From Bacteroidaceae bacterium (GTDB lineage Bacteria > Bacteroidota > Bacteroidia > Bacteroidales > Bacteroidaceae): a stretch of DNA of 64,000 nucleotides. Shown here piece by piece: positions 11,801-29,558 of this stretch (within the stretch, counting starts at the first letter, position 1; every line of letters begins with the position of its first letter). The position numbers and the translations under genes are program-made. The stretch spans positions 18,201-82,200 of the forward strand of contig JAFUYT010000020.1 of NCBI GenBank assembly GCA_017470425.1, read 5' to 3'. The notes under the pieces were generated by a model. The model ran no database searches and was not told the origin of the DNA. It saw nothing but the letters and a program-made list of their open reading frames with translations.

Positions 11801-14800
11801 ATGGCAAAGAAGTTTCCGGAATACTCCAAATTCAACCTCACAGAGGTCAATCACGAAATACTGAGCCGATGGGACGAGGAAGACCTGTTCCACCGCAGCA
11901 TCAGCGAGCGCGAGGGCTGTCCCTCCTTCGTCTTCTTCGAGGGTCCGCCCTCGGCCAACGGACACCCCGGCATCCACCACGTCCTGGCGCGCTCCATCAA
12001 GGACACCTTCTGCCGCTTCAAGACCATGAAGGGCTATCAGGTCCACCGCAAGGCGGGCTGGGACACCCACGGACTGCCCGTGGAGCTCGGCGTGGAGAAG
12101 GAGCTCGGCATCACCAAGGAGGACATCGGCAATAAGGCATCAAAGAAGTATATTTCTATTGAGAAATACAACGACAGATGTCGAAAGAACGTGATGATGT
12201 ACACCGAGGAGTGGACCGACCTCAGCCGCCGCATGGGCTACTGGGTCGATATGGAGCACCCCTACATCACCTACGACAACAAGTACATCGAGACCCTCTG
12301 GTGGCTCCTGAAGCAGCTCTACCAGAAAGGGCTCCTCTACAAGGGCTACACCATCCAGCCTTATTCGCCTGCCGCCGGCACCGGCCTCTCCAGCCACGAG
12401 CTCAACCAGCCCGGCTGCTACCGCGACGTGAAGGACACGACGGTGACGGCACAGTTCCGTGTCAAAGCCCCCCTTTCGTCCCCCGAGGGGGACACAGCAC
12501 CTCTGTCCATCATTAAGAAAGCATTAGAAGCCTCCTCGGGGGCCGTAGGGGGGGCCGCTCTCCCTATCTATATTTTGGCTTGGACCACCACGCCCTGGAC
12601 ACTGCCCTCGAACACTGCCCTCTGCGTAGGCCCCAAGATCAAGTACGTGGCTGTCAAGGGACAGAACCCATATACGAAGGAGGAGGCCATCTACATCGTC
12701 GCCGACAGCCGCAAGGATGTCTATTTCCCATGCTCTGTGTCCGGCGGTTCGTCCGCCGGAAAAGAAGACGCCGCAGCTCCCGAAATCGTCTGGGAAGGCA
12801 TGGGCACTGACCTCCTCGGCCTCCACTACGAGCAGCTCTTCCCCTGGGTGAAGCCCTGCGCACTGGAGGACGGCAAGGCCGTCGATAAGAGCGCCGATGC
12901 CTTCCGCGTCATCCCCGGCGACTACGTGACCACCGAGGACGGTACGGGCATCGTACACATCGCACCCACCTTCGGTGCCGACGATGCCAAGGTGGCCAAG
13001 GACGCCGGCATCCCCTCGCTCTTCGTCATCGACAAGGCTGGCGACACGCGACCCATGGTCGATTTCACGGGTAAGTACTTCGTGAAGGACGACATGGACG
13101 CCGCGTTCGTAGAGACCTGCGTCAACGACAGCTACTGGCACCACGCAGGCGACTTCGTCAAGAACGCCTACGACCCCAAGTACGCCGGCCTCGATGAGAA
13201 AGCACTCGCCAAGACCGAGGACCTCAACATCGTCCTCTGCATGGAGATGAAGCAGGAGGGCACCGCCTTCAAGATCGAGAAGCATGTCCACAACTATCCC
13301 CACTGCTGGCGCACCGACAAACCCGTGCTCTACTATCCCCTTGACTCGTGGTTCATCCGCAGCACAGCCGCCAAGGAGCGCATGATGGAACTCAACAAGA
13401 CCATCCTCTGGAAGCCCGAATCCACGGGCACAGGACGCTTCGGCAAATGGCTGGAGAACCTCAACGACTGGAACCTCAGCCGCAGCCGCTACTGGGGCAC
13501 ACCGCTGCCCATCTGGCGCAACAAGGAGACGCGCGAGGAGATCTGCATCGGCTCCGTGGAAGAGCTCTACAACGAGATAGAGAAGAGCGTGCGCGCAGGC
13601 GTGATGGCCTACAACCCGCTGAAGGATAAGGGCTTCGTGCCCGGTGATATGTCGCAGGAGAACTACGACCGCATCGACCTACACCGCCCCTACGTCGATG
13701 ACATCATCCTCGTAGGCGAGAGCGGACAGCCCCTGAAGCGCGAGCTCGACCTCATCGACGTGTGGTTCGACAGCGGCGCCATGCCCTACGCACAGATTCA
13801 CTATCCCTTCGAGAACAAAGATAAAGGCCCCTCTCTAACTCCCCCCGTGGGGGGGAGGACTGCATATCCTCTGGATAGCCAAGCGGAAACGAGGCTCTCC
13901 CCCCAACGGGGGGAGCGGGGAGAGGGGCGTGCCTTCCCCGCCGACTTCATCGCCGAAGGTGTCGATCAGACACGCGGTTGGTTCTTCACGCTCCACGCCA
14001 TCGCCACGATGGTCTTCGACAGCGTGTCGTACAAAGCCGTCATCTCCAACGGCCTCGTTCTCGACAAGAACGGGCTGAAGATGTCCAAGCGCCTCGGCAA
14101 TGCCATCAACCCCTTCGACAACATCGAGAAGTTCGGTAGCGACGCCGTGCGCTGGTATATGTTAACAAACTCACAACCATGGGATAATCTGAAATACGAT
14201 GAAGCAGGGGTTCAAGAGGTGAGCCGCGCCTTCTTCGGCAAGCTCTACCAGACCTATTCCTTCCTGGCGATGTACGCCAACGTCGATGGCTGGCACTTCG
14301 AGGAGCCGGAGGTTCCCATGAGTCAGCGCCCGGAGATGGACCGCTGGATCCTCTCGTCGCTCAACTCCCTCATCCGCGAGGTGGAGCAGAGCTATGAGAA
14401 CTATGAGCCCACGCGCGCCGGACGCCTCATCCAGTCGTTCGTCATCGACAACGTCTCCAACTGGTTCGTGCGCCTCTCCCGCAAGCGTTTCTGGGGTGGC
14501 GAGATGACCATCGACAAGCTCAGCGCCTACCAGACACTCTACACCTGCCTGGAGACCGTCAGCCGCCTGATGGCTCCCATCGCACCCTTCTACGCCGACC
14601 AGCTCTATAGGGATTTGCATAGCGTGCAGAGCCCCTCTCTAACTCCCCCCGAGTGTTCGGTGCTCGGCGGCTCTGCCGCCGAGGGGCTTCTCTCCGTCCA
14701 CCTCGCCACCTTCCCCGTGGCCGACGATGCCCTCATCGACAAGGAGCAGGAGTCCCGCATGGCGCTCGCACAGCAGATCACCTCGATGGTGCTCTCCCTG

Positions 14801-15481
14801 CGCAAGAAGGAGCAGATCATCGTGCGTCAGCCCCTGGCGCGCATCGCCATCCCCGCCATCGACCGCGAGCAGCAGCTCCGCATCGAAGCCGTGAAGCAGC
14901 TCATCCTCGACGAGGTCAACGTGAAGACGCTCGAATTTGTCGAGGGCGCTGGCTTGCTCACGAAGAAAGTCAAGTGCAACTTCCGCACGATGGGCAAGAA
15001 ATTCGGTAAGCTGATGAAGGACGTCAACGCCGCCGTCACAGCCCTCTCGCAGGAGCAGATCGCAGAGCTCGAGACCGGACACCTGCCCCTGACGCTCGCC
15101 ACCGGCGACGCTGTCACCATCGACCTCGAGGACGTCGAGATCTTCTCCGAGGACATCCCCGGATGGACCGTCGCCAACGAAGGCGCCCTGACCGTAGCCC
15201 TCGACATCACCGTGACCGATGAGCTCCGCAACGAAGGCTACGCCCGTGAACTGGTCAAGCGCATCCAGAACCTCCGCAAGGAGAGCGGCTTCGAGATCAC
15301 CGACCGCATCACCATCCGCCTGGCACATCATGAGCTGACAGACCGCGCCGTAGCTACCTTTGGCGACTACATCCGTGCGCAGGTCCTCGCCGAGGACATT
15401 GCCGTCGTCGATGTCGTAGAGAACCCGGTGACGCTCGACTTTGAGGACTTCAAACTCGACGTGAACATACAGAAACAATAG
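11801..15481 (+). CDS. ileS: isoleucyl-tRNA synthetase with in-frame insertions
   Basis: 1226 residues from ATG 11801. Class I aminoacyl-tRNA synthetase charging tRNA-Ile. The HIGH-type motif is GHPGIHH at residues 54-60 and the KMSKS-type motif is LKMSKRLGN near 762. The editing (CP1) landmark AWTTTPWTLPSNTALCVGP is at about 263. The C-terminal anticodon-binding region is present. The protein is longer than usual because of at least four insertions made of GC-rich palindromic DNA: about residues 222-254 (just before the editing-domain block), 312-320, 675-709 (inside the catalytic half, between YPFENKDK and FPADFIAEGVDQTRGWF) and 943-963. All keep frame and the surrounding conserved blocks are intact, so the enzyme is probably functional. 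It heads a conserved operon with dksA-like, lspA and DUF4296 genes. Confidence 0.97.
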   Translation: MAKKFPEYSKFNLTEVNHEILSRWDEEDLFHRSISEREGCPSFVFFEGPPSANGHPGIHHVLARSIKDTFCRFKTMKGYQVHRKAGWDTHGLPVELGVEKELGITKEDIGNKASKKYISIEKYNDRCRKNVMMYTEEWTDLSRRMGYWVDMEHPYITYDNKYIETLWWLLKQLYQKGLLYKGYTIQPYSPAAGTGLSSHELNQPGCYRDVKDTTVTAQFRVKAPLSSPEGDTAPLSIIKKALEASSGAVGGAALPIYILAWTTTPWTLPSNTALCVGPKIKYVAVKGQNPYTKEEAIYIVADSRKDVYFPCSVSGGSSAGKEDAAAPEIVWEGMGTDLLGLHYEQLFPWVKPCALEDGKAVDKSADAFRVIPGDYVTTEDGTGIVHIAPTFGADDAKVAKDAGIPSLFVIDKAGDTRPMVDFTGKYFVKDDMDAAFVETCVNDSYWHHAGDFVKNAYDPKYAGLDEKALAKTEDLNIVLCMEMKQEGTAFKIEKHVHNYPHCWRTDKPVLYYPLDSWFIRSTAAKERMMELNKTILWKPESTGTGRFGKWLENLNDWNLSRSRYWGTPLPIWRNKETREEICIGSVEELYNEIEKSVRAGVMAYNPLKDKGFVPGDMSQENYDRIDLHRPYVDDIILVGESGQPLKRELDLIDVWFDSGAMPYAQIHYPFENKDKGPSLTPPVGGRTAYPLDSQAETRLSPQRGERGEGRAFPADFIAEGVDQTRGWFFTLHAIATMVFDSVSYKAVISNGLVLDKNGLKMSKRLGNAINPFDNIEKFGSDAVRWYMLTNSQPWDNLKYDEAGVQEVSRAFFGKLYQTYSFLAMYANVDGWHFEEPEVPMSQRPEMDRWILSSLNSLIREVEQSYENYEPTRAGRLIQSFVIDNVSNWFVRLSRKRFWGGEMTIDKLSAYQTLYTCLETVSRLMAPIAPFYADQLYRDLHSVQSPSLTPPECSVLGGSAAEGLLSVHLATFPVADDALIDKEQESRMALAQQITSMVLSLRKKEQIIVRQPLARIAIPAIDREQQLRIEAVKQLILDEVNVKTLEFVEGAGLLTKKVKCNFRTMGKKFGKLMKDVNAAVTALSQEQIAELETGHLPLTLATGDAVTIDLEDVEIFSEDIPGWTVANEGALTVALDITVTDELRNEGYARELVKRIQNLRKESGFEITDRITIRLAHHELTDRAVATFGDYIRAQVLAEDIAVVDVVENPVTLDFEDFKLDVNIQKQ
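12466..12562. repeat. twin palindrome insertion 1 in ileS
   Basis: AGCCCCCCTTTCGTCCCCCG then AGGGGGACAC on the left and GAAGCCTCCTCGGGGGCCGT then AGGGGGGGC on the right. The outer GCCCCCC/GGGGGGGC arms pair and each half is palindromic. In frame, about 32 codons. Confidence 0.7.
12738..12760. repeat. small GC palindrome in ileS
   Basis: Core TCCGGCGGTTCGTCCGCCGG, encoding SGGSSAG. The same core occurs in metH, nudC, the mutarotase-symporter gene and the terminator-like hairpin at 29570. Confidence 0.65.
13826..13928. repeat. twin palindrome insertion (PLSNSP type) in ileS
   Basis: About 103 bases. The left half is GGCCCCTCTCTAACTCCCCC then CGTGGGGGGGAGGACT. The right half GAGGCTCTCCCCCCAACGGG then GGGAG ends GAGAGGGGC. 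The halves are inverted copies. Near-identical elements lie at 25983-26088 and 28630-28736. In ileS the element is read in a different frame (SLTPPVGGRT) from the other two (PLSNSPRGGED). Confidence 0.85.
14629..14690. repeat. half element plus small palindrome in ileS
   Basis: AGCCCCTCTCTAACTCCCCC, the left half of the twin element, followed by the palindrome CTCGGCGGCTCTGCCGCCGA. In frame near the C-terminal domain. Confidence 0.65.
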
Positions 15482-15523
15482 GAACACTCACAAACTATCT
15501 CACACAACAGCTCTATCATTATC

Positions 15524-15910
15524 ATGGAAGAGAAAACTCGCTACACCGATGAGGAACTCGAGGAGTTCCGCGTCCTGATCAATGAGAAACTCGCCGTAGC
15601 GCAGAGCGACTACGAGAAGACCATGGACCGCATCATGAACCGCGACAGCAACGAGGCTGACGACACTGCGCCCACCTACCACGCACTCGAAGAGGGCAGC
15701 GAGACGCAGACCAAGGAGCAGCTCATGGCAATGGCGATGCGCCAGCAGAAGTTCATCACGGGACTCAAGGCAGCCCTCGTGCGCATCGATAACAAGACCT
15801 ATGGCATCTGCCGCGAGACAGGAAAGCTCATACCCAAGGAGCGCCTGCGCGCTGTGCCTCATGCCACACTCAGCATCGAGGTCAAGAACGACAAGAAACG
15901 TAAACACTGA
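15524..15910 (+). CDS. DksA/TraR-family protein
   Basis: 128 residues. The N-terminal half is a helical, acidic coiled coil (YTDEELEEFRVLINEKLAVA) and the C-terminal half carries the DksA/TraR fold signature YGICRETGKLIPKERLRAVP then HAT. Classical DksA has four zinc-binding cysteines. Here only one Cys remains, as in many Bacteroidetes homologues that fold without zinc. DksA-type proteins bind the RNA polymerase secondary channel and modulate transcription. The gene lies 42 bases after ileS and 13 bases before the likely start of lspA, an arrangement common in Bacteroidetes. Confidence 0.85.
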   Translation: MEEKTRYTDEELEEFRVLINEKLAVAQSDYEKTMDRIMNRDSNEADDTAPTYHALEEGSETQTKEQLMAMAMRQQKFITGLKAALVRIDNKTYGICRETGKLIPKERLRAVPHATLSIEVKNDKKRKH

Positions 15911-15923
15911 TTCTCCCGCCACT

Positions 15924-16571
15924 TTGAGCACGCTGACCACCAACAATAAACGATGGCAGGCGGCAACCGTCGCCGCCATCTTTATCGGATTCCTCGCCAT
16001 TGACCAGATCGTCAAGGTGTGGGTGAAGACGCACATGGCGCTCCACGAGAGCCGTCGCGTCACCGACTGGTTCTACATCACCTTCATCGAGAACAACGGC
16101 ATGGCCTTCGGCATGGAGTTCTTCGACAAGCTCTTCCTCACGGGCTTCCGCCTCGTGGCGACCTGTTTCGTCGGCTACTACATGGCGCGGCTCATCCGGC
16201 GCGGCGTCTCGTGGGGCTATCTCATCTGCCTCGCCTTCATCATGACCGGCGCCGCAGGCAACATCATCGACTGCCTCTTCTACGGTCTCATCTTCGACAA
16301 CCCCGCCTGGCCGCAGGTGGCGCAGTTCGTGCCCTTTGGCGAAGGCTACAGCACGTGGTTCTACGGTCGGGTCGTAGATATGTTCTACTTCCCCCTCTGT
16401 GAGTGGGATTGGCCCGCGTGGGTTCCCTTCGTGGGCGGTAGCCACTACGTCTTCTTCTCCTATATCTTCAACGTCGCCGATGCCTGCATCTCCTGCGGCG
16501 TCATCGCCCTCCTCCTCTTCTACCGCCGCACGCTCAGCGAGGAACTGAAAGTGGAGAAAGGGGAGAGTTGA
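15924..16571 (+). CDS. lspA: lipoprotein signal peptidase (prolipoprotein signal peptidase II)
   Basis: About 215 residues if started at TTG 15924. The frame has no ATG between the end of the dksA-like gene and the first membrane helix, so a TTG (15924) or CTG (15933) start is likely; the ATG at 15861 would overlap the upstream gene. Four membrane helices are visible. The catalytic aspartates lie in the conserved blocks GRVVDMFYF and FNVADACIS, and FIENNGMAFGM matches the N-terminal signature. It cleaves lipoprotein signal peptides at the inner membrane. The next gene is itself a lipoprotein. Confidence 0.9.
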   Translation: MSTLTTNNKRWQAATVAAIFIGFLAIDQIVKVWVKTHMALHESRRVTDWFYITFIENNGMAFGMEFFDKLFLTGFRLVATCFVGYYMARLIRRGVSWGYLICLAFIMTGAAGNIIDCLFYGLIFDNPAWPQVAQFVPFGEGYSTWFYGRVVDMFYFPLCEWDWPAWVPFVGGSHYVFFSYIFNVADACISCGVIALLLFYRRTLSEELKVEKGES

Positions 16572-16640
16572 CAGTTGAAAGTTGAAAGTTGACAGTTGAC
16601 AGTTGACAATTGACAGTTGAAAGTTGATAGTTGACAATTG
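16567..16640. repeat. TTGACAGTTGA simple repeat
   Basis: Tandem, imperfect TTGACAGTTGAAAG units after lspA. Shorter copies occur at 18331-18367, and inverted copies at about 45819-45853. Confidence 0.85.
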
Positions 16641-17765
16641 AAAAACATCCCTTCCCTCAAACGCATTTTACTCCCCTCCCTACCGCTCGGCGCTCTGCGA
16701 CGCTTGACGCTTCAAGAAGGGAGGGGCAGGGGGGTGGGTCCTCAGTGGATGGGTCTTCTCCTCCTCTTTCTCCTCCTCTCCTGCAAGCCCCAGCTCCCCG
16801 AAGGTGTCCTCTCCGAAGGAAAGATGGAGCGCGTGCTCTACGACTACCACATCGCACAGGTCATCGCTGAGTCCGACGCCTACTCTGACCAACCCCTCGA
16901 CGTTCGCCGCTACGAGCTCCAGCAGGCTGTCCTCCGCAAGCATGGCATCACACAGGCGGAGTTCGACAGCTCGATGGTCTTCTATTGTAGCGACATCCCC
17001 CGCCTGAACGCCATCTACAACCGCGTCGCACAGCGCTTCGAGCGCGAGGCAGAGGCGTTGGGAGCTGTCCTCGATGCGGCAGACCTCTATGCCCGCCTCA
17101 CTGCGGATGGCGACACGGCGAATGTATGGGTGGGGCGCAAGGTCTTTGCCGTCCGCAACCGTCTGGGCGAGAACCTGCACGCGTGGCGCATCGCCTGCGA
17201 CTCCACCTGGTTGGAGGGCGACGACCTCCTCTGGCGCTTCCAGACGCAGACCTTCTCGCGCGAGGGCTACTACCAGAGCATCTACGCCCTCCTCGTCATC
17301 ACCTATACCAACGACTCCGTTCGTGCGCGAACCGTGCAGCTGAACGACCGCGCCTCCGGTGAGCTCCGCATCGATAACCCCGAGGGGTGGGTGCCCAGCA
17401 CCGTCGCCGGACAGCTCTTCCTCCCTGTCGAGGAAGACCCGCAGCGCTCACGGCTCTACATCGTCAACCATCCCTCCCTCATCCGCTTCCATAAGAGTCC
17501 CGAGTGGCGCGCACGCCTCCACGTTCCTGACACCCTCGCGACCGATACCCTCGTGGCGGACACCCTCGCCGCAGACACCCTCGCCGATCGCCACAGCTCA
17601 CGCAGCGACAAGTCCGATGCCGATGCGCCCCAGCATCGGCGCACGCCCACTGAGTTCCGCGAGCAGCAGTCAGTAGATAAGAAAATTGAAATCGTCAAGG
17701 AGAAACCTTACCAGATTCGCCGCGGCAAGAACACGAAGCGGCGTCAGCAAGGCAGCAGGCGTTGA
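16638..17765 (+). CDS. DUF4296-family lipoprotein
   Basis: 375 residues if the TTG at 16638 is used, 338 if ATG 16749 is used. The lipobox is LLFLLLSC followed by KPQLPEGVLSEGKMERVLYD, typical of DUF4296. The family is encoded downstream of lspA in many Bacteroidetes; its role is unknown and it is probably an outer-membrane-associated lipoprotein. The first 37 codons of the longer version are translated palindromic element (LPSLPLGALRRLTLQEGRG), giving the signal peptide an unusual N-region; the shorter version lacks any positive charge before the hydrophobic core. Near residues 295-315 a run of TLATDTLVADTLAADTLAD shows a tandem repeat. The C-terminus is strongly basic. Confidence 0.75.
   Translation: MKNIPSLKRILLPSLPLGALRRLTLQEGRGRGVGPQWMGLLLLFLLLSCKPQLPEGVLSEGKMERVLYDYHIAQVIAESDAYSDQPLDVRRYELQQAVLRKHGITQAEFDSSMVFYCSDIPRLNAIYNRVAQRFEREAEALGAVLDAADLYARLTADGDTANVWVGRKVFAVRNRLGENLHAWRIACDSTWLEGDDLLWRFQTQTFSREGYYQSIYALLVITYTNDSVRARTVQLNDRASGELRIDNPEGWVPSTVAGQLFLPVEEDPQRSRLYIVNHPSLIRFHKSPEWRARLHVPDTLATDTLVADTLAADTLADRHSSRSDKSDADAPQHRRTPTEFREQQSVDKKIEIVKEKPYQIRRGKNTKRRQQGSRR
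16670..16741. repeat. palindromic element (CTACCGCTCGG type) at the start of the DUF4296 gene
   Basis: ACTCCCCTCCCTACCGCTCG through GCTTCAAGAAGGGAGGGG and CAGGGGGGTGGGTC. The same element recurs at 25115-25191 and, inverted, at 24887-24972. Confidence 0.8.
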
Positions 17766-17812
17766 CCATCCTTGTACGTAACGCCCACCATCTCAGTATT
17801 CCCGTCTGCCCC

Positions 17813-18082
17813 ATGACCCGTAAAGCTTACCACCGTCTCCTGTTCCCCGATGGCTCCGTGCTCCCGATGCAAGTCGTCGAATGGGATGCCGCCGGACATC
17901 TCGTTGGCTACCACACCCTCCGCGCTGAAGAGCCCTTCGTGGAGTGGGTAGGCGGAACGCTCAGCCTACTTGAAGACGAAATAAACGGCAAGAACCAGGC
18001 AGATGAAGGCGGCGACGTGGTTCCAGTGGAGGGACTGACCCTGAAACAGGAAACCGATGATGACAGTGAAGATGGTCAATGA
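17813..18082 (+). CDS. small conserved-type hypothetical protein
   Basis: 89 residues from ATG 17813 (MTRKAYHRLLFPDGSVLPMQ then VVEWDAAGHLVGYHTL). A TTG at 17762 overlapping the DUF4296 stop would add 17 residues. Residues 1-55 look like a real small domain with a LFPDGSVL...VVE...G...Y..L...EPF.EW pattern. The acidic tail is read from the strand opposite the end of the DUF486 gene and overlaps it by 117 bases, so the tail may be fortuitous. It is the last gene of the ileS-lspA unit. Function unknown. Confidence 0.5.
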   Translation: MTRKAYHRLLFPDGSVLPMQVVEWDAAGHLVGYHTLRAEEPFVEWVGGTLSLLEDEINGKNQADEGGDVVPVEGLTLKQETDDDSEDGQ

Positions 18083-18331
18083 GATCACCTCCTGAATGAC
18101 CTTCAGCTGCACCAGGGTGAACGGACCGCCATTGCCGATGAAGCCGATGCGGTTGGCGGGCACGGCAAAGCAGTATTCGATGAAGGCGATGCTCCACGAG
18201 AAGGCGATGACGGCAATCAGCGGCCAGTGGCTGCTCACGCCCGCTTCCTGCAGGCGAAGGTGCCCGTACCAGGCGAAAGTCATGAAAACGTTGCTCGCGA
18301 GCAACAGGAGAATGGTCTGTAAAGCTGGCAT
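17966..18331 (-). CDS. DUF486-family small membrane protein (DMT-like)
   Basis: 121 residues with four hydrophobic helices. Conserved-looking blocks are NVFMTFAWYGHL near residue 14, SWSIAFIEYCFAVPANRIGF near 46 and FTLVQLKVIQEVISLTIF near 70, ending YFVFK. This fits the DUF486 / small DMT-type transporter family; the substrate is unknown. Convergent with, and overlapping, the preceding small gene. It is monocistronic as far as visible. The upstream bases (18331-18367) hold a TTGACAGTTGATAG repeat. Confidence 0.8.
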   Translation of the reverse strand: MPALQTILLLLASNVFMTFAWYGHLRLQEAGVSSHWPLIAVIAFSWSIAFIEYCFAVPANRIGFIGNGGPFTLVQLKVIQEVISLTIFTVIIGFLFQGQSLHWNHVAAFICLVLAVYFVFK

Positions 18332-18367
18332 GATGATTTAGTTGACAGTTGATAGTTGACAGTTGGA
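18331..18367. repeat. TTGACAGTTGATAG repeat upstream of the DUF486 gene
   Basis: Three units of the same simple repeat as 16567-16640. Confidence 0.75.
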
Positions 18368-18413
18368 TATCAAATTTTGACCGCAAAGTTACGGCTTTTT
18401 CGTGAAAAGGTGG

Positions 18414-18421
18414 TATCTTTG
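18414..18421 (+). promoter_or_regulatory. -7 element TATCTTTG of the ECF sigma operon
   Basis: TATCTTTG about 64 bases before the sigma gene. Between them lies the palindromic motif GGTACGCGCGTACGCGTG just before the start codon. Confidence 0.6.
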
Positions 18422-18484
18422 CAGCGATAATTACTCATCAACCCCAGAATAATCATAAAAAAGGTACGCGCGTACGCGTGAGAA

Positions 18485-19036: not shown

Positions 19037-19087
19037 ACCTTTTCAATAAGACCTTGTCCAAGAACCAAACTGAACCAAAAAGACAAC

Positions 19088-19489: not shown

Positions 19490-19506
19490 CAAAAAAGGAA
19501 CAGAAT

Positions 19507-19977: not shown

Positions 19978-20040
19978 CGCCCTTAACGCCCAACGCCCTT
20001 AACGCCCTTAACGCCCTTAACACCCTCAACGCCCTCAGTA
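19973..20040. repeat. CGCCCTTAA tandem repeat
   Basis: Six to seven imperfect copies of a 9-10-base unit (AACGCCCTT) directly after the Spy-like gene. Confidence 0.85.
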
Positions 20041-20060
20041 ACAAGTACAATCATATCGGT

Positions 20061-20100
20061 ATCGCCCCCTCATGGCTTCTGCATGAAGGGGCGATGCTTT
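20061..20100 (+). terminator. hairpin after the sigma operon
   Basis: ATCGCCCC at 20061 pairs with GGGGCGAT at 20087-20094, with an imperfect inner stem, followed by GCTTT. Probably terminates the ECF sigma operon. Confidence 0.65.
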
Positions 20101-20167
20101 ATGGGGTGATTGCTGTATGGGTTCGTGTGCTGTATGGTCCGCGTGCGGTAAAGCATCCGGGAGACGC

Positions 20168-21172: not shown

Positions 21173-21310
21173 TTTTTTCAAGGAAAAACACAATAAAACG
21201 GCAAATTAAGTGTTGTAGGCTCCCGTTCTGGGGAGGATTCGGGGCGCTCAAGGAATGATTTGGGGCGCTCCAGGGTAGCTTCGGGGCACCCTGAGGTAGC
21301 TTCGGGGCAC

Positions 21311-22225: not shown

Positions 22226-22289
22226 ACTTCTTCTCTCTAAACAGCTATCCTAGATTCTCCTAGGATCTCCTACTTTTTCCTAGGCTCTC

Positions 22290-22997
22290 CTAGCCCCTAT
22301 TTCTCAAATATTTCTCCAATCCTTCCCTGCGCAGCTTGCACGCCGGACACTCGCCGCAGCCGTCGCCAGGGATGCCATTGTAACAAGTTAAGGTACGCGT
22401 GCGCACGAGATCCAGGACCTTCAGCTTGTCGGCCTTCTCCCATGTCTGCGCCTTGTCGATCCACATGAGGGGCGTGTGAATCACGAACTGCTCGTCCATA
22501 CCCAGGTTCAGCGTGACGTTCAGCGACTTGATGAACGCGTCGCGGCAGTCGGGGTAGCCGCTGTAATCCGTCTGCGAGACGCCTGTCACAAGGTGGTTGA
22601 TGCCGTGCTCACGGGCAAAGACTGCGGCCACGCTTAGGAAGAAGAGGTTGCGACCGGGCACGAACGTGTTGGGAGGACCGTCGGCGGGCTTCTCCTGATC
22701 CATCGTGATGCTGCTGTCGGTGAGTGAGTTGTGGGAGAGCTGGCTGATGAACGACACATCCATCTGGTGCCATTCCACCTCCTCGCCGCCTTCGTTCAAT
22801 CCGTTCTCGCGGGCGATGCGCCCGGCGTCGTCGGCAATCTCGCGCGCCTTCTCGACTTCCAGTACGTGCTTCTGCCCGTAGGTGAAGGTCAGTGCCACCA
22901 CACGGCGGAAGTGCTTCAGCGCCCAGAACAGGCATGTCGTGGAGTCCTGACCGCCACTGAAAACCACCAGCGCGGTCTCTTTATTCATTGGTTTCAT
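22290..22997 (-). CDS. queC: 7-cyano-7-deazaguanine synthase
   Basis: 235 residues. The P-loop [15 protein letters not shown] is near residue 13, and the C-terminal zinc site [17 protein letters not shown] is near 210. QueC converts 7-carboxy-7-deazaguanine to preQ0 in queuosine tRNA modification. It is preceded on the same strand by the VUT-family queuosine-precursor transporter. In many Bacteroidetes queF follows; here rnz follows instead. Codons near residue 199 (RTRTL) contain the GGTACGCGTGCGC motif that recurs in this window. Confidence 0.95.
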
Positions 22998-23110
22998 ATC
23001 TCTAATCTCTCATCTCTAATCTTTAATCTCTAATCCCTAATCTCTAATCTCTCCTAAGAGTCTCGCCTTACCCTCCTAAGAGGGTTATGTTAGCATTTTT
23101 TTTAAAGTCA
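22998..23110. repeat. TCTAATCTC simple repeat between queC and transporter
   Basis: About seven imperfect copies of TCTAATC(T/C)C at 22999-23053, then two CTCCTAAGAG palindromic units. No gene. Confidence 0.8.
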
Positions 23111-23782
23111 TCAGAGCACGCTGTAGCGCACGCCCTCATCATAGACGTCCACGCCCTCCGTGCGCTTCAGCCAGGCGACGATACGGGTGGTGATGGGTAG
23201 GAGAATGATTTCGTATAGTGTCTTGATAGCCACTTGGCTAACCATCATAATTAAAAGGTTTTCTTTAGGAACGATGCCGCCCAGCGCAACGGGGAAGAAC
23301 ACCATCGAATCCGCCAGCTCACCGACCACCGTGGAGGCGATGGCGCGCAGCGAGAAGCGGCGCCCCTTGTCGCGAATCTTCATCACGCTCATCACGTAGG
23401 CGTTCAGAAACGATCCTATGAGGAAGGCAGCGAAGGAGGCCAGCGCCACGCGCGGAGCCAGACCGAACAATGCGTGGAACCCTTCCTGGTTCGTCCAGTA
23501 GGGTGCGCCGGGAATCATGTCGGCCAGCCATGCCAGCAGTACGAAGGCAAAGTTCATGAAGAAACCCGTCCAGATGATGAGCTTCGCGCGTCGATACCCC
23601 CACACCTCTGTGATGCAGTCGTTGACGACGTAGGAGACCGGAAACACGAGCACGCCGGTTGTCAGGTTCAGGGGACCGAGCAGGAATTGTTTGGTTGCAA
23701 GCAGGTTCGCCAGAATCAGGCAAACGCAAAACGTGACGCCGAGCAACATGAACGTCACGCTGACTGGTTCTTGTCTTTTCAT
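23111..23782 (-). CDS. yhhQ: queuosine precursor transporter (VUT/YhhQ family)
   Basis: 223 residues with about six membrane helices. The YhhQ pattern is visible: NLLATKQFLLGPLNLTTGVL, VFPVSYVVNDCITEVWGYRR and FSLRAIASTVVGELADSMVF. The family imports preQ0/preQ1 or queuosine bases. The downstream queC supports this. It has its own minus-strand promoter (23838-23869) in the divergent region shared with the sialic acid operon. Confidence 0.92.
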   Translation of the reverse strand: MKRQEPVSVTFMLLGVTFCVCLILANLLATKQFLLGPLNLTTGVLVFPVSYVVNDCITEVWGYRRAKLIIWTGFFMNFAFVLLAWLADMIPGAPYWTNQEGFHALFGLAPRVALASFAAFLIGSFLNAYVMSVMKIRDKGRRFSLRAIASTVVGELADSMVFFPVALGGIVPKENLLIMMVSQVAIKTLYEIILLPITTRIVAWLKRTEGVDVYDEGVRYSVL

Positions 23783-23837
23783 CTTTCTTGTTTTGTTAAA
23801 GGGGGTTGAGCAAGTACCCCTGTGCGGTTTTGCGGCG

Positions 23838-23869
23838 CAAAGGTACGCTTTTTCCGCGAAGCAGCCAAA
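23838..23869 (-). promoter_or_regulatory. promoter of yhhQ-queC
   Basis: Minus-strand TACCTTTG (23838-23845) with TTTG at 23866-23869, 20 bases upstream. Confidence 0.75.
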
Positions 23870-23884
23870 TTAGCGGCTGAGAAA

Positions 23885-23916
23885 TTTGGCACATTCATGA
23901 AATGACCTTATCTTTG
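23885..23916 (+). promoter_or_regulatory. promoter of the sialic acid operon
   Basis: TTTG at 23885-23888 and TATCTTTG at 23909-23916, 20 bases apart. Divergent from and close to the yhhQ promoter, with the two -33 boxes only 15 bases apart. Confidence 0.78.
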
Positions 23917-23958
23917 TCCCGCAAAATAACTTGAACGACTAACTTCAAAGAAAAACCT

Positions 23959-24885
23959 ATGAAATTTGAGAAGATCAAAGGGCTCATTGACGCCCCCTTC
24001 ACCCCCATGTATGCTGACGGCAGCATCAACCTCTCCATTATCCCCGAGTATGCTGCCCTCTTGCAGCGCAACGGCCTCAAAGGCGTCTTCATCAACGGCT
24101 CCAGCGGTGAGGGCTATATGCTCACCGAGGACGAGCGTAAGCAGATTGCCGAAGCCTGGATGGATGCCACAAAGGATTTTGAGGACTTCAAAGTCATCGT
24201 CCACGTCGGTAGCACCTGTGTGAAATCCAGCCGTGCCCTCGCCGAGCACGCGCAGGCCATCGGAGCCTTCGGCATCGGCGCCATGGCACCTCCCTTCCCC
24301 AAGGTGGGCCGCATCGAAGAGCTGGTGAAGTACTGCGAGGAAATCGCCTGTGGAGCTCCTGAGCTGCCCTTCTACTTCTACCACATCCCCGCCTTCAACG
24401 GCGCTTTCCTCTCCATGTACGACTTCCTGCAGGCCGTGGATGGCCGCATCCCCAACTTCGCAGGCATCAAATACACCTTCGAGAGCCTCTACGAGTATAA
24501 CCGCTGCCGCCGCTATAAGGACGGTAAGTTCGACATGCTCCACGGCCAGGACGAGACCATCCTTCCCTGCCTCGCCATGGGCGGCGCACAGGGCGGCATC
24601 GGCGGCACCACGAACTACAACGGACGCTGTCTCACCGGCATCATCAAGGCCTGGCAGGAGGGCGACCTCGAGAAAGCCCGCCAGCTGCAGAACTACGCTC
24701 AGGACGTCATCGACGTCATCTGCCACTTCCGCGGCAACATCGTCGGCGGCAAGCGCATCATGAAGCTCATCGGCCTCGACCTCGGTCCCAACCGCACTCC
24801 CTTCCAGAACGTCACTCCCGAGGAGGAAGTCCGTCTGAAAGCCGAACTTGAAGCCATCGACTTCTTTAATCATTGCAATAAGTAA
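23959..24885 (+). CDS. nanA: N-acetylneuraminate lyase
   Basis: 308 residues of the DHDPS/NAL TIM-barrel family. It cleaves sialic acid to ManNAc and pyruvate. The GxSGE block is INGSSGEGYM near residue 47, the active-site Tyr is in FYFYHIPAFNG near 136, and the Schiff-base Lys is in FAGIKYTFESL near 165. The downstream genes encode a sialic acid mutarotase/transporter and an epimerase, so this is the first step of a NanLET-type catabolic route known from Bacteroides. It has a good promoter. Confidence 0.93.
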   Translation: MKFEKIKGLIDAPFTPMYADGSINLSIIPEYAALLQRNGLKGVFINGSSGEGYMLTEDERKQIAEAWMDATKDFEDFKVIVHVGSTCVKSSRALAEHAQAIGAFGIGAMAPPFPKVGRIEELVKYCEEIACGAPELPFYFYHIPAFNGAFLSMYDFLQAVDGRIPNFAGIKYTFESLYEYNRCRRYKDGKFDMLHGQDETILPCLAMGGAQGGIGGTTNYNGRCLTGIIKAWQEGDLEKARQLQNYAQDVIDVICHFRGNIVGGKRIMKLIGLDLGPNRTPFQNVTPEEEVRLKAELEAIDFFNHCNK

Positions 24886-24886
24886 G

Positions 24887-24972
24887 AAGACCCACCCCTC
24901 ACCCTCCCTTCTTGAAGCGTCAAGCGTCGAAGAGCGCCGAGCGGCAGGGAGGGAGTAGTTATCTTTCAAGAA
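24887..24972. repeat. palindromic element after nanA (CTACCGCTCGG type, inverted)
   Basis: GACCCACCCCTCACCCTCCC, then TTCTTGAAGCGTCAAGCGTC, ending GGCAGGGAGGGAGTAGTTAT then CTTTCAAGAA. It is the inverted partner of the copy at 25115-25191 inside the next gene. The GGGAGT...CTTTCAAG tail also occurs at 28066, 58008 and 59473. Confidence 0.8.
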
Positions 24973-25033
24973 CAGTGTCCGCTATTCACAAGAAAAGCTA
25001 TAGAATCTGTCACTTTTAACAATCTTTGCCTAT

Positions 25034-28000
25034 ATGAAGACAACCCGCAAATTATTCATATCGCTTGCTCTCCTTATTGCACAGGTATTTGCACCTTCCC
25101 TATTTGCACAGGATTCTACTCCCCTCCCTACCGCTCGGCCCAAAGGGACGCTTGACACTTCAAGAAGGGAGGGGCAGGGGGGAGGGTCTGAGACTGTGAC
25201 TCCCTCCCACCGCTTCAACACCGCCTCCTTCTTGCCCGTCCCCTCCCTTGCAGCCTTTGGCGGTCAAGGCGTTAGCGGTGCCTTCGCAGGCGTAGCGGGT
25301 GATTACGTCCTCGTGGCCGGTGGCTGCAACTTCCCCGATACCCCTGCTGCCGAAGGCGGTCAGAAAGCCTTCTACACCGACATCTATGCCCTCAATATCG
25401 CCGCCGCTGTGCCCGAGGTTTCCCCCTCGGGCTCTGCTTCCCCCTCGGGCTCTGCTTCCTCCTCTTCTTCCTGGCAGCGCGTCGGTTCCCTCCCCTGCGG
25501 CCTCGCCTACGGTGCCAGCGTCACCACCCCCGAGGGCGTCGTCTGCCTCGGTGGTACTGCCGACGGCCAGAAGAGCGAGGACTTCGCAGTCCTCCTTACC
25601 CTTGGTTCGAGCGGCGAGGCCGTCAGCCGTGACCTCCCGCCGCTGCCCGTGACCCTCGACAACTTTGCCGCCGCATACGGCGATGGCTACATCTACGTCG
25701 CTGGCGGTCAGCACAATGGCATCCCCAACCGCAAGGCCTACCGCCTGAAGTGGCCCTTGCCCGCCTCGTGGTTCGAAGCCCAGACAGGTGCCGCCTGGGA
25801 GCAGCTCCCCGACCTCATCGGCCCCGCCCGCGTGCAGCCCGCTGCCGCCGTCCAGAAAGGTGCCATCGGCTCCAACTTCTATCTCCTCGGTGGCTATGAT
25901 CCCCGCTACGGCAAGGCCGTCTCCAATGGTGTTTATTATGACCCGAGGAAGAAGGAATGGCTGGCTACTTCCTTGATACAAAAGCCCCTCTCTAACTCCC
26001 CCCGTGGGGGGGAGGACTTAGTGTCCTCTGATAGGCTTTCTAACGGAAACGAGGCTCTCCCCCCCACGGGGGGAGTTGGAGAGGGGCTCGCCCTCGTCGG
26101 TGCCTCTGCCATCCCCTCCGGTGCAGCCCACATCCTCTGCTTCGGTGGCGTCAACAAAGACATCTTCGAGAGCGCCTTGGAGCGCAATGCCCTCATGGCC
26201 GACACCGCCACCACAGCCGATCGTCTCGCACAACTCCGTGCTGAAGCCTACGCCTACATGACGCAAAACCCCGCCTGGTATCAGTTCCGCCGCTCGATCC
26301 TCGTCTATCACACCGTCACCGACTCCTGGGCAGAGCTCTTCGACTCGCCCCTCATCGCCCGTGCCGGTGCAGCCGTGGTGCCCGTGCCGTCCGGCACGGG
26401 TTCTGCCTCCCTCTCCGCCCTCCTCATCGACGGCGAGGAGAAGCCTGGCGTCCGCTCTTCCGACGTCACCCGCGTCGATATAGCCTACAACGCCCACTTC
26501 GGCTGGCTCAACTGGACGGTCCTCATCCTCTACCTCCTCGGCATGGTCTATCTCGGCTACTACTTCATGAAGCGCGCCTCGAACTCCTCCGAGGACTTCT
26601 TCAAGGGCGGTGGCCGCATCCCCTGGTGGGCAGCAGGCATCAGCATCTTCGCCACCATGCTCTCGGCCATCACCTATATGAGCATCCCCGCCAAAGCCTA
26701 TGCCACCGACTGGACCTACTACCCCATGCAGATCTGCATCCTCGTGGTGTCCTTCCCCGTCATCAAGTACTATCTGCCATTCTTCCGTCGCCTGAACGTC
26801 ACCACGGCTTATGAGTACCTCGAGCGTCGCTTCAACTCGGCCACGCGCCTCATGGCCTCCATCCTCTTCATCGTCTTCATGGTGGCACGCACAGCCCTCG
26901 TGCTCTTCCTGCCGTCGTTGGCCATGACCGCCGTCACGGGCATCAACATATATATATGTATAGCCCTGATGGCCCTCATCACCATCCTCTACTGCACTAT
27001 GGGCGGTGTCGAAGCCGTCGTCTGGGGCGATGTCATCCAGGGCATCATTCTCGTGGGCGGTGCCATCCTCGCCGCCGTCTATCTTATCGTCAACACGGGC
27101 GACAACGGCGCCAGCGACTTCTGGCAGATAGCCACCGACCACGACAAGTTCCGCCTCTTCCTCTTCGACCCCGAGCATCCGTTCGACTTCGTCAACGCCA
27201 CCTGGTGGGTCGTCATCCTCGGAGGCCTTGCCAACAACCTCATCAGCTACACCTCTGACCAGACCGTCATCCAGCGCTACCTCACCACCTCCGACGAGAA
27301 GAGCGCTGCCCGCGGCATCCTCACCAACGGCCTCATGTCCGTCGTCGTAACCATCGCCTTCTTCACCATCGGCACAGGTCTCTACACCTTCTTCAAGACC
27401 CATCCCGCCGAGCTCGACATCACCATGGCCAAGGGCGACGCCATCTTCCCCTTCTTCATGATGAGCCAGCTCCCCGCAGGTCTCGCCGGCCTCCTCATCG
27501 CCGCCGTCTTCGCCGCCACCATGTCCACCATCGCCTCCAACATCAACAGCATCAGCACGGCGTTTACGGTGGATTTCTGGTCGAAATGGAAAGCCCCCTA
27601 TAATCCCCCGGTGGGGGATAAACAGGCAGGCAGTGTGCCCGGCGGTTCTCCCACGGATGATGGCAAGGAACCAACGCCCCCCACCGGGGGGCCACGGGGG
27701 GCTGTATATGTCGCCCGCATCGCAGGCATCTGTGCCGGTCTCCTCGGCATGGCCATCGCCTGGCTCATGGCCACCGTTGACATCCAGTCGCTCCTCGACT
27801 ATTTCAACACCATCCTCGGCCTCCTGAGCGGTGCCATTGGTGGTCTGTTCCTGATGGGCATCTTCTTCCCCCGCATCGGTTCCCGTGCCGCCATCATCGG
27901 CTTCCTCTGTGGCACCGCCACCGTCCTCTACATGAACTTCTTCACCCAAGCCAACTTCCTCCTCTTCGGTTTCGTCTCCATGCTCGTCAGCGTCCTCGTC

Positions 28001-28093
28001 GCCCTCCTCCTCAGCATCTTCATGCCGCAGAAGGAAGAACAGAAAGGGCTGACGTGGAAGACATTGGGACCCACCCCCAACCCCTCCTGTTAG
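25034..28093 (+). CDS. NanM-like sialic acid mutarotase fused to a sodium:solute symporter
   Basis: 1019 residues. A signal peptide (LFISLALLIAQVFAPSLFAQ) is followed by a Kelch-type beta-propeller at about 60-480 (YVLVAGGCNFPD, DGYIYVAGGQHNGIP, NFYLLGGYDP), matching cyclically permuted mutarotase/NanM. A sodium:solute symporter of about 13 helices runs from about 490 to 1005 (YYFMKRASNSSEDFFKGGGR then IPWWAAGISIF, a typical SSS start). The fusion would spin beta- and alpha-sialic acid at the site of uptake. In-frame palindromic insertions lie at about residues 27-52, 316-351 and 853-890, plus PSGSASPSGSAS near 132. The last residues and stop codon come from another element (28066-28119). A mutarotase-symporter fusion may be ancestral; the insertions are not. 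Confidence 0.85.
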   Translation: MKTTRKLFISLALLIAQVFAPSLFAQDSTPLPTARPKGTLDTSRREGQGGGSETVTPSHRFNTASFLPVPSLAAFGGQGVSGAFAGVAGDYVLVAGGCNFPDTPAAEGGQKAFYTDIYALNIAAAVPEVSPSGSASPSGSASSSSSWQRVGSLPCGLAYGASVTTPEGVVCLGGTADGQKSEDFAVLLTLGSSGEAVSRDLPPLPVTLDNFAAAYGDGYIYVAGGQHNGIPNRKAYRLKWPLPASWFEAQTGAAWEQLPDLIGPARVQPAAAVQKGAIGSNFYLLGGYDPRYGKAVSNGVYYDPRKKEWLATSLIQKPLSNSPRGGEDLVSSDRLSNGNEALPPTGGVGEGLALVGASAIPSGAAHILCFGGVNKDIFESALERNALMADTATTADRLAQLRAEAYAYMTQNPAWYQFRRSILVYHTVTDSWAELFDSPLIARAGAAVVPVPSGTGSASLSALLIDGEEKPGVRSSDVTRVDIAYNAHFGWLNWTVLILYLLGMVYLGYYFMKRASNSSEDFFKGGGRIPWWAAGISIFATMLSAITYMSIPAKAYATDWTYYPMQICILVVSFPVIKYYLPFFRRLNVTTAYEYLERRFNSATRLMASILFIVFMVARTALVLFLPSLAMTAVTGINIYICIALMALITILYCTMGGVEAVVWGDVIQGIILVGGAILAAVYLIVNTGDNGASDFWQIATDHDKFRLFLFDPEHPFDFVNATWWVVILGGLANNLISYTSDQTVIQRYLTTSDEKSAARGILTNGLMSVVVTIAFFTIGTGLYTFFKTHPAELDITMAKGDAIFPFFMMSQLPAGLAGLLIAAVFAATMSTIASNINSISTAFTVDFWSKWKAPYNPPVGDKQAGSVPGGSPTDDGKEPTPPTGGPRGAVYVARIAGICAGLLGMAIAWLMATVDIQSLLDYFNTILGLLSGAIGGLFLMGIFFPRIGSRAAIIGFLCGTATVLYMNFFTQANFLLFGFVSMLVSVLVALLLSIFMPQKEEQKGLTWKTLGPTPNPSC
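25115..25191. repeat. palindromic element near the N-terminus of the mutarotase-symporter gene
   Basis: CTACTCCCCTCCCTACCGCT then CGGCCCAAAGGGACGCTTGA, ending AGGGAGGGGCAGGGGGGAGG then GTCTG. Translated in frame directly after the signal peptide. Pairs with 24887-24972. Confidence 0.8.
25983..26088. repeat. twin palindrome insertion (PLSNSP type) in the mutarotase domain
   Basis: About 106 bases: AGCCCCTCTCTAACTCCCCC then CGTGGGGGGGAGGACT, a 36-base spacer, then GAGGCTCTCCCCCCCACGGG then GGGAGTTGGAGAGGGGCT. It encodes PLSNSPRGGED and ALPPTGGVGEGLAL between two propeller strands. Confidence 0.87.
27592..27703. repeat. twin palindrome with nested small palindrome in the symporter domain
   Basis: Left AGCCCCCTATAATCCCCCGG then TGGGGGATAAA. 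Right ACGCCCCCCACCGGGGGGCC then ACGGGGGGCT. A GTGCCCGGCGGTTCTCC core is nested in the spacer at about 27633. In frame between two membrane helices, in a loop. Confidence 0.78.
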
Positions 28094-28119
28094 GGAGGGA
28101 GTGGTCACCTTTCAAGGAG
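28066..28119. repeat. palindromic element containing the symporter stop codon
   Basis: GGGACCCACCCCCAACCCCT then CCTGTTAGGGAGGGAGTGGT then CACCTTTCAAGGAG. The TAG in the palindrome loop is the stop codon of the upstream gene. Inverted relative to the element at 28200-28240. Confidence 0.8.
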
Positions 28120-28172
28120 AGAATCCAAAATGGTGGTATATTTTTAAGTAACAATTATAAACAACAATAATA

Positions 28173-29558
28173 ATGCAAGAAAACAAATCAGCAAATGTAA
28201 CTGCTCCCTCCCTCATAGGGAGGGCGGGGGGAGAGTCCTCTTTTTCATCATTAGCCCAGCTCTATAAGTCCGAACTCCTTGACCGCGTCGTCCCCTTCTG
28301 GCTCAACAAAAGCCAGGACAAGGACTTCGGCGGCTACTTCACCTGCCTCGACCGCGATGGCAGCGTCTATGACACCGACAAGTTCATCTGGCTGCAAGGC
28401 CGCGAAGTGTGGATGTTCGCCAAGCTCTACAACACCGTCGAGCCCCGTCAGGAATGGCTCGATGCCGCCATCCAGGGTGCCGAGTTCCTGAAGAAGCACG
28501 GCCACGACGGCAACCTCAACTGGTACTTCGCCCTCGACCGCGAAGGCCACCCCCTCGTGGAGCCCTACAACATCTTCTCCTACACCTTCGCCACCATCGC
28601 CTTCGGCCAACTGAGCATCGCCTTGAGCAAGCCCCTCTCTAACTCCCCCCGTGGGGGGGAGGACTCCTTATCCTCTGAGGGGCAATCAAGCGGAAACGGG
28701 GCTCTCCCCCCCACGGGGGGAGCAGGGAGAGGGGCTTTGGCTGCCGAGTACGCCTCCATCGCCCGCCGCACCTTTGACATCGTCCTCTCCAAGACCGACA
28801 ACCCCAAAGGCCGCTGGAACAAAGCCGCCGCAGGTGCCCGATCCCTCAAGACCTTCGACCTGCCCATGATCCTCTGTAATGTCGTTCTGGAGATAGAACC
28901 TTTATTGAAGGCAAGTGGAAACGAATCCCCCTCCCTTGGGGAGGGGTTAGGGGTGGGCTCCTATATCGACACCTGCCTCCACGAAGTCATGGACGTCTTC
29001 TACCGTCCCGAGCTCGGCCTCATCGTCGAAGCCCTGGGCAAGGACGGCAACCTCGTTGACTGCTTCGACGGCCGCAAGCTCAACCCCGGCCACGCCATCG
29101 AGGCTATGTGGTTTGTCATGGACCTCGGCAAGCGCCTCGGCCGTCCCGAACTCATCCAGCAGGCTGTTGATATCTGCCTCCAGGAAGTAGAGTACGGCTG
29201 GGACAAGGAGTTCGGCGGCATCTTCTACTTCATGGACCGCCTCGGCCATCCCCGCCACGAACTCGAATGGGACCAGAAACTCTGGTGGGTACACCTCGAG
29301 ACCCTCATCTCCCTCATCAAGGGCTACCAGCTCACCGGCGACCAGCGTTGCCTCGACTGGTTCCAGCGCGTCCACGACTACACCTGGAGCCACTTCCGCG
29401 ACCCCGAATACCCCGAGTGGTACGGCTACCTCAACCGCCAGGGTGAAGTCCTCCTGCCCCTCAAGGGCGGCAAGTGGAAAGGCTGCTTCCACGTACCCCG
29501 CGGACTCCTCAACGTCTGGAAGATCCTCGAAGACCTCAGCAGCAGACAAGACCAATAA
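28173..29558 (+). CDS. nanE: N-acylglucosamine 2-epimerase family protein (sialic acid catabolism)
   Basis: 461 residues, longer than the usual 390-400. Family landmarks are FGGYFTCLDRDGSVYDTDKF near 49, WLQGREVWMFAKLYN near 71, HAIEAMWFVMDLGKRLGR near 309 and YGWDKEFGGIFYFMDRLG near 342. It should convert ManNAc to GlcNAc, after the lyase step. Three in-frame element insertions account for the extra length: residues 10-22 (APSLIGRAGGES), 153-188 (the twin element PLSNSPRGGED...LPPTGG) and 252-262 (SPSLGEGLGVGS). The catalytic (alpha/alpha)6 barrel blocks are otherwise intact. A small GC hairpin after the stop may terminate the operon. Confidence 0.9.
   Translation: MQENKSANVTAPSLIGRAGGESSFSSLAQLYKSELLDRVVPFWLNKSQDKDFGGYFTCLDRDGSVYDTDKFIWLQGREVWMFAKLYNTVEPRQEWLDAAIQGAEFLKKHGHDGNLNWYFALDREGHPLVEPYNIFSYTFATIAFGQLSIALSKPLSNSPRGGEDSLSSEGQSSGNGALPPTGGAGRGALAAEYASIARRTFDIVLSKTDNPKGRWNKAAAGARSLKTFDLPMILCNVVLEIEPLLKASGNESPSLGEGLGVGSYIDTCLHEVMDVFYRPELGLIVEALGKDGNLVDCFDGRKLNPGHAIEAMWFVMDLGKRLGRPELIQQAVDICLQEVEYGWDKEFGGIFYFMDRLGHPRHELEWDQKLWWVHLETLISLIKGYQLTGDQRCLDWFQRVHDYTWSHFRDPEYPEWYGYLNRQGEVLLPLKGGKWKGCFHVPRGLLNVWKILEDLSSRQDQ
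28200..28240. repeat. palindromic element at the start of nanE
   Basis: ACTGCTCCCTCCCTCATAGG then GAGGGCGGGGGGAGAGTCCT. In frame as APSLIGRAGGESS. Inverted partner of 28066-28119. The same sequence type is at 9391 and 58112. Confidence 0.8.
28630..28736. repeat. twin palindrome insertion (PLSNSP type) in nanE
   Basis: About 107 bases with the same halves as 25983-26088 and read in the same frame. The spacer differs in sequence and length. Confidence 0.87.
28926..28960. repeat. single palindromic element in nanE
   Basis: TCCCCCTCCCTTGGGGAGGG then GTTAGGGGTGGGCTC, in frame (SPSLGEGLGVGS). Confidence 0.7.

Follow-up and report, generated by a model that had tools for sequence, protein, structure and literature searches.

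Palindromic elements lie in frame in conserved genes of a Bacteroidaceae genome and alternate with unrelated palindromes at shared loops

The DNA analysed here is a 64,000-nucleotide stretch (the window) of contig JAFUYT010000020.1 of the Bacteroidaceae bacterium assembly GCA_017470425.1 (positions 18,201–82,200 of the forward strand), in which a preliminary description had claimed near-identical twin-palindromic elements within ileS, a mutarotase–symporter gene and nanE. All three are present, the ileS copy ending at 13929, and they belong to a family, termed A (family letters are labels coined in this analysis), with 39 distinct two-arm copies in the source genome, 38 of them genic and in frame. 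At four loops, one each in ileS and nanE and two in the symporter gene, relatives carry unrelated palindromic families or none. The reading that we favour, with some reserve, is that these are non-autonomous palindromic cassettes that would persist as translated peptides in tolerant loops. The elements, their host open reading frames (ORFs) and the family E element at the second symporter loop are as follows.

11723..15478, + strand: ileS host ORF (stop to stop), isoleucyl-tRNA synthetase (PF00133, PF08264)
13826..13929, + strand: family A two-arm palindromic element in ileS, 104 nt, reading PSLTPPVGGRT...LSPQRGERGEGR
25004..28090, + strand: NANM domain fused to an SSF symporter (Pfam), host ORF (stop to stop)
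25983..26088, + strand: family A element in the NANM/SSF gene, symporter site 1, 106 nt, reading KPLSNSPRGGEDLVSS...NEALPPTGGVGEGL
27593..27702, + strand: family E palindromic element, symporter site 2, reading APYNPPVGD...TPPTGGPRGA
28161..29555, + strand: nanE host ORF (stop to stop), N-acylglucosamine 2-epimerase (PF07221)
28630..28736, + strand: family A element in nanE, 107 nt, reading KPLSNSPRGGEDSLSS...NGALPPTGGAGRGA

Family A elements consist of two inverted arms of about 34 nt, each self-palindromic, which flank a variable spacer of mostly 35–50 nt; this twin-half architecture, as first described, is borne out in all three window copies. Terminal inverted repeats, as in miniature inverted-repeat transposable elements, are present. 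Folded as RNA, the ileS, symporter and nanE copies reach −73, −86 and −83 kcal/mol (z scores of −6.0, −9.2 and −7.3, respectively), with none of 200 shuffles as low in each case, and the nanE copy folded as single-stranded DNA is likewise far stabler than shuffles on both strands. A known structured RNA was ruled out, as Rfam gives no match at the gathering threshold in positions 11000–31000. With one mismatch allowed, the 10-mer end of the element has 11 matches in the window against 6.9 expected, a number reached by six of 100 shuffles and not significant alone. All three elements are open in the host frame, and the statement that two frames are used is correct: the ileS copy reads PSLTPPVGG and the symporter and nanE copies read PLSNSPRGGE. 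The symporter host is a NANM–SSF fusion, with a sialate epimerase-like domain joined to a sodium:solute symporter (Pfam). Between matched stretches, NanE has 43 residues where its solved homologue 2gz6 has six, and IleRS has 35 where 8c8u has three. The suggested clean, element-length insertion did not hold, as the genes exceed those of relatives with short loops by a net 30 (ileS), 30 (nanE) and 27 (symporter) codons, less than the element length because part of the loop is replaced.

The source metagenome-assembled genome (MAG) comprises 2,415,637 bases in 36 contigs and is 72% complete and 3% contaminated; its genus is probably a rumen Bacteroidaceae-like one. Across it the 18-mer CCCCTCTCTAACTCCCCC has 64 matches with at most two mismatches and the reversed control none; copies with more than two letters changed in the left half escape detection. 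Stretches around these matches and around those of a BLAST search of the same genome (the best 40 of 74 candidates scored) gave 75 half-site matches, which merge into 63 places, 40 of them two-arm; one copy is identical in contigs C26 and C34, leaving 39 distinct. The preliminary observation thus holds, and on a larger scale than was claimed. A script whose codon model had been trained on 11 genes of the window, together with their inserts, assigned a single strand and frame to both flanks at 37 of the 40 places (36 of 39 distinct copies), none with a stop and three weakly (C4:46121, C36:1815 and C36:4683). By eye, two further copies are also in frame, one in PheT (C29; Pfam) and one in a biotin-carrier protein (C10), which brings the genic total to 38 of 39; the only non-coding two-arm copy, C18:147838, has stops on both sides. 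The right arm is missing from 23 rows, of which 17 nevertheless read in frame with no stop; the remaining six include intergenic single arms (C17:21559 and C30:35175) and chance-like matches. Taken alone, the genic preference is modest (one non-coding copy in 39 at p 0.126 gives P 0.035; the coding density of the window is at most 0.87), and it becomes strong only on the assumption that out-of-frame copies have been lost.

Host ORFs match a Pfam family at E 1e-5 or better in 35 of the 36 scanned, the exception being L050. They include six aminoacyl-tRNA synthetase genes (IleRS, ValRS, MetRS, ArgRS, CysRS and PheT), ClpB, TruB, TsaD, formylglycinamide ribonucleotide (FGAR) amidotransferase, FeoB, methylmalonyl-CoA mutase, a carbamoyltransferase, orotidine monophosphate (OMP) decarboxylase, dihydroorotate dehydrogenase, shikimate dehydrogenase, glycosidases and others, where names going beyond those of Pfam are probable assignments. 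Six of the 34 located inserts fall inside a best Pfam stretch, a count that says nothing firm on domain borders because the insert itself breaks the profile match.

One exact family A 35-mer, scanned in one MAG collection, recurs in 17 contigs from further MAGs, whose titles give Bacteroidaceae, Prevotellaceae or Bacteroidales and mostly point to the rumen. Twelve of these contigs hold a script-called in-frame, stop-free copy (L036 weakly), L034, L038, L041 and L043 hold non-coding copies, and L044 is ambiguous. Genome G088 has ten of 12 fetched two-arm loci in frame (L136 and L140 are not). The complete in-frame copies of G015 are L110, L113 (weakly), L114 and L124 by the script and L123 by PheT homology, and many single-arm copies lie there among stops. 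Near-total genic placement is therefore a property of the window genome and is weaker elsewhere. The 35-mer in these contigs speaks against an assembly artefact, as do the sharing of sites between several MAGs, in one case together with the spacer, and an element length (about 105 nt) below that assumed for an ordinary short read. Although the G-numbered genomes look like metagenome assemblies and one copy is identical in C26 and C34, we regard an assembly or binning artefact as scarcely credible.

Reading frame and length are both constrained. Among 39 rows in canonical orientation (nested copies counted separately), 31 use the main forward frame, three the other forward frame and five are antisense, and both forward frames are stop-free in 85–87% of 52 rows. 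The lengths of 36 copies, taken modulo 3, fall 23 times in class 1, 13 times in class 0 and never in class 2 [(2/3)^36 = 5e-7]. In the three copies tested, with a codon table that includes the tested genes, the frame in use contains fewer rare codons than any of the other five: 3/35 against 6–10 in the nanE copy, 3/34 against 8–14 in the symporter copy and 2/30 against 5–13 in a family C copy in ileS. Upstream of the elements A is in excess at −8 and −5, which are second codon positions in the main frame. The frame and codon bias, together with the hydrophilic upstream residues that these positions specify, point to selection on the peptide. Strong hairpins within the messages of conserved enzymes might instead suggest that the inserts are skipped by ribosomes or cut from the RNA or protein, but no in-frame two-arm row contains a host-frame stop and the avoidance of one length class would be needless under skipping, which makes such removal very improbable.

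The four loops were surveyed in the 30 best-scoring loci per host gene (ileS, nanE and symporter) from 101 genomes, a selection that favours long alignments, with labels, including 'none' and 'other', set by eye. At the ileS loop, five of 30 loci carry significant inverted repeats, namely A in the window genome, an A-like repeat in G053 and AT-rich repeats in G014, G028 and G065; one is long without a repeat and 24 are short. The orthologue alignment proposed in the preliminary description agrees: 24 of 30 loci have an 11-residue loop without an insert and six, the window genome included, are long. At the nanE loop, seven of 30 loci are labelled as inverted repeats (two of these, L158 and L164, are counted as chance), six are long and 17 short, and the families are A in the window genome, B in G048, C in G015 and D in G076 and G077. 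Symporter site 1 (25 loci with data) has eight inverted repeats, seven long and ten short loops, with families A, C, F and G. Symporter site 2 (30 loci) has four, 11 and 15, respectively, with E in the window genome, A in G088, C in G055 and D in G076, and degenerate A, C and F forms occur by eye among its long loops. On a quick symporter tree built with the loops excluded, loop state changed at least 11 times at site 1, at least 13 times at site 2 and at least ten times at the nanE loop. Orthologues thus lack the element or carry something else, and the proposal of a Rickettsia-like palindromic element copied into genes and tolerated in frame is supported by this, by the in-frame count and by the 35-mer shared with other MAGs.

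Conservation of the arms at the level of single letters in coding DNA, and the preference for genes and for one frame, might also be expected if the inserts had been selected for a function as an mRNA hairpin, a flexible linker peptide or an enzyme control. The hosts are unrelated, however, many relatives have no insert, families are swapped at one loop and the sister genomes G088 and G003 differ at symporter site 2; a selected function is in our judgement improbable.

Family C behaves similarly. It has 11 matches in the source genome (none with the reversed control), all 11 in coding DNA and in one frame (...APSGAVGG-like), with the left arm recognized in eight, and has CCGTAGG beside a hairpin. 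Exact matches number 33 in 12 of the 101 genus genomes. Among 30 copies examined, the frame agrees on both sides in 24 and on one side in four, where a gene border is possible, and two are antisense. By eye, families D and F show the same peptide at two loops or in several genomes.

The arms are better preserved than their surroundings. In ten same-site pairs from different genomes (three sharing members) the flanks are 71–86% identical, left arms agree at 30–33 of 33 letters and right arms at 29–33 of 33, except for 19 in the ungapped window/L213 comparison. Spacers in eight of the ten pairs lie within the ordinary cross-genome range, which indicates that most same-site elements are not simple descendants of one insertion; the exceptions are PheT (1/82 higher) and L114/L145. 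That the arms are uniform at synonymous positions suggests that copying or conversion goes on. Copying of spacers from host flanks was rejected, as the longest shared words match those of permuted pairs (6.22 against 6.17) and 75 of 200 permutations are as high.

Near-empty sites were obtained by comparing the joined flanks of 11 G088 sites with G003 or G075 (12 comparisons); at one mismatch or fewer, G003 has no family A match and its sister G088 has 14. All 12 length differences are multiples of three. The clearest comparisons are those of L138 with both genomes and of L131 and L133 with one genome each; here the lengths differ by 93, 93, 111 and 114 nt, and by eye some 5–18 nt of loop have been replaced. 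At the L131 site G003 carries another palindrome; the other comparisons are too diverged for a junction to be read. Replacement rather than clean insertion, together with copies nested in others, whose spacer they replace while staying in frame, and arms that stay alike as spacers are swapped, would also fit a transposase-free process. In it, template switching and ectopic conversion between G-rich palindromic genes' segments would both create the arms and spread them, overwriting an indel-prone loop; template switching has been proposed for the coding palindromes of Nematomorpha mitochondria (PMC6649704). Conversion needs homology, yet seemingly unrelated A, C, D and AT-rich repeats share one loop, and the arms are only about 34 nt long. 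We therefore treat this process as a doubtful, though serious, candidate.

The two inverted arms with a variable spacer, the arms better kept than the spacer, recall REPINs (hairpin-forming doublets of repetitive extragenic palindromic, or REP, sequences), which would be moved by a REP-associated tyrosine transposase (RAYT; a Y1 HUH transposase) missing from the incomplete MAG, the genic copies being survivors. The domain concerned, PF01797 (Y1_Tnp), is found at E<=0.001 in 40 of the 101 genus genomes, including eight of the 15 with at least ten family A matches and 32 of the 86 others (P 0.26). It has no match in the source genome, itself only 72% complete, or in the element-rich genomes G015, G020, G005 and G097; strong matches (E<1e-15) occur in three of 15 element-rich genomes and 13 of 86 others (P 0.70). 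Genic placement also departs from the 14 of 1,067 16-mers that overlap genes in SBW25 (PMC3116915, in part). With PF01797 not found in the source genome and no significant association across the genus, RAYT mobilization was set aside and is considered unlikely. Carriage by phages or plasmids was likewise rejected, since exact A and C patterns have no match in viral contigs and blastn of one family A copy finds none in plasmids or phages.

The explanation that we favour, which extrapolates from sequence comparison to events in the cell, may be set out as follows. Cassettes of two conserved inverted arms and a free spacer, in several families, would multiply in one rumen Bacteroidaceae-like genus. 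A copy entering a gene would swap out a few codons of a hydrophilic loop and be retained only where the net length change is divisible by three and the encoded peptide harmless, so that survivors would mostly use the mildest frame of the family (rich in Pro, Gly and Ser, with few rare codons). The inserts would be translated as some 27–40 extra residues, presumably in exposed loops and under selection on the peptide. Because few loops are expected to tolerate inserts, unrelated families would come to occupy the same loops anew in different species. The arms would be kept uniform by ongoing copying or by conversion between arms, while spacers drift in frame.

Several observations weigh against this explanation. 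Insertion followed by selection predicts many intergenic copies, yet only one of 39 two-arm copies is non-coding. We guess that unprotected intergenic doublets collapse to single arms; the source genome does not favour this, given that most of its right-arm-less rows are in frame and stop-free. Non-coding copies do occur in G015 and some other MAGs, no mobilizing enzyme was found in the source genome, and no target-site duplication was noticed by eye, although no formal test was made. A nanE structure predicted without an alignment had a mean predicted local distance difference test score (pLDDT) of 45 and was not used as an indication of loop exposure. Finally, L114 (G015) and L145 (G016), at the same site, share an element that is 98% identical (45 of 46 spacer letters) between flanks of 80% identity, which drift does not give; the next best match in the 101 genomes is 85% identical (at most the best eight candidates scored per genome). 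In this pair the element may have passed between species without its flanks. A wider proposal, to which we extend only tentative credence, is a protein-niche mobile-cassette system in which several unrelated families of palindromes would live nearly exclusively as translated, frame-specific peptides and be exchanged at shared docking loops of essential enzymes by replacement without a known transposase, possibly between species into the same site.

Further elements of families A and C in the window are the following.

9712..9791, + strand: family C element, diverged, in the ORF at 8692–11139 (ASPSAPEGDTVEGEDEGMEAPSGAVWG)
12467..12556, + strand: family C two-arm palindromic element in ileS (APLSSPEGDTAPLSIIKKALEASSGAVGGA)
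14630..14690, + strand: family A left arm with a short palindromic remnant, in frame in ileS (SPSLTPPECSVLGGSAAEGLL)

Positions 23959–30819 are likely to form a sialate cluster, comprising a dihydrodipicolinate synthase (DHDPS)-family lyase, probably nanA-like, the NANM–SSF fusion, nanE and a major facilitator superfamily (MFS) transporter; it holds at least three palindromic inserts across two genes. Two more repeat-like stretches, of the kind CCCTCCCT...AGGGAGGG, lie within nanE, at 28203–28238 near the N-terminus (APSLIGRAGGES) and at 28926–28961 (at SPSLGEGLGVGS). Copies of 76 nt, 89% alike, lie near the N-terminal coding ends of two ORFs (16665–16740 and 25113–25188), and a palindrome of the CCCACCCCCAACCCCTCCC kind is in frame inside the minus-strand ORF 45855–48635 (46287–46360). 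Positions 2632–2819 hold a 53-nt sequence with CCCTC...GAGGG arms in three near-tandem copies, spaced 71 and 64 nt apart. Inverted repeats across the window number 16, against 0–2 in ten local shuffles; others lie in script-called non-coding DNA at 632–764, 3680–3826, 58006–58149 and 59438–59610, some of them AT-rich.

Three features went unseen in the preliminary description: the other palindromic families at the same loops, the preferred frame of each family and the replacement of a few codons in place of a clean insertion. For annotation, the extra residues are probably not functional domains. Protein-coding palindromes have so far come chiefly from Rickettsia and scattered intragenic REPs; this gut genus offers a genome with about 40 copies of one family in conserved genes and natural replicates at the same loops across species. 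Invasion of essential genes by small repeats, filtering by frame and codon, and inserts as seeds of new protein loops become testable.

The elements act like Rickettsia palindromic elements (RPEs) and are built like REPINs, and neither definition fits fully. The source excerpts describe RPEs as palindromic stem-loops of about 105–150 bp, in frame in conserved genes and in several families per genome, with 19 of 44 in ORFs in R. conorii; an RPE-bearing Gmk is translated and active (PMC10969869, PMC2229807). The window elements share the size, the stem-loop and an ORF that runs through the element in conserved genes. They differ in belonging to another phylum (exact matches are in Bacteroidaceae-, Prevotellaceae- or Bacteroidales-titled MAGs), in GC-rich twin arms with a free spacer (the likeness is one of description), in the exchange of several families at one loop and in a genic share that, by the same excerpts, is nearly half for RPEs. 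REPINs have two inverted palindromic arms, a variable spacer and hairpin capability, and are almost wholly extragenic in the excerpt of PMC3116915; family A has the same two inverted REP-like arms and variable spacer, but is not predominantly extragenic, is in frame and is tracked significantly by no RAYT. GTAG/CGTC REPs, mostly intergenic and with CGTC repeats known in Bacteroidetes, are described in the excerpt of PMC3733652 as intragenic in R. conorii, O. terrae, Thauera and Thioalkalivibrio, inside genes such as uvrA and uvrB, where dimers or groups often encode 20–30 residues. Family A resembles them in that REP dimers code inside genes; its arms, read by eye, have neither tag, and that excerpt reports no family swapping at fixed loops. 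Nematomorpha mitochondria have long inverted repeats translated in conserved genes at the same positions in several species and so share translated palindromes that recur at fixed positions, but theirs are not a dispersed family and, in the excerpt, both arms code conserved residues (PMC6649704). PARCELs (palindromic amphipathic repeat coding elements) are dyad-symmetric DNA coding protein repeats, described in the excerpt of PMC2996958 as tandem 25-residue arrays, often in membrane proteins, whereas the window inserts are single and in enzymes. Searches of open-licence PubMed Central (PMC) papers turned up none on such elements in Bacteroidales genes. RPEs and intragenic REPs are prior art (PMC10969869, PMC2229807, PMC3733652). 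As far as those searches show, the novelty lies in the occurrence in Bacteroidales, in a genome whose copies are almost all genic, in a reading frame particular to each family and in the exchange of unrelated families at loops that stay the same.

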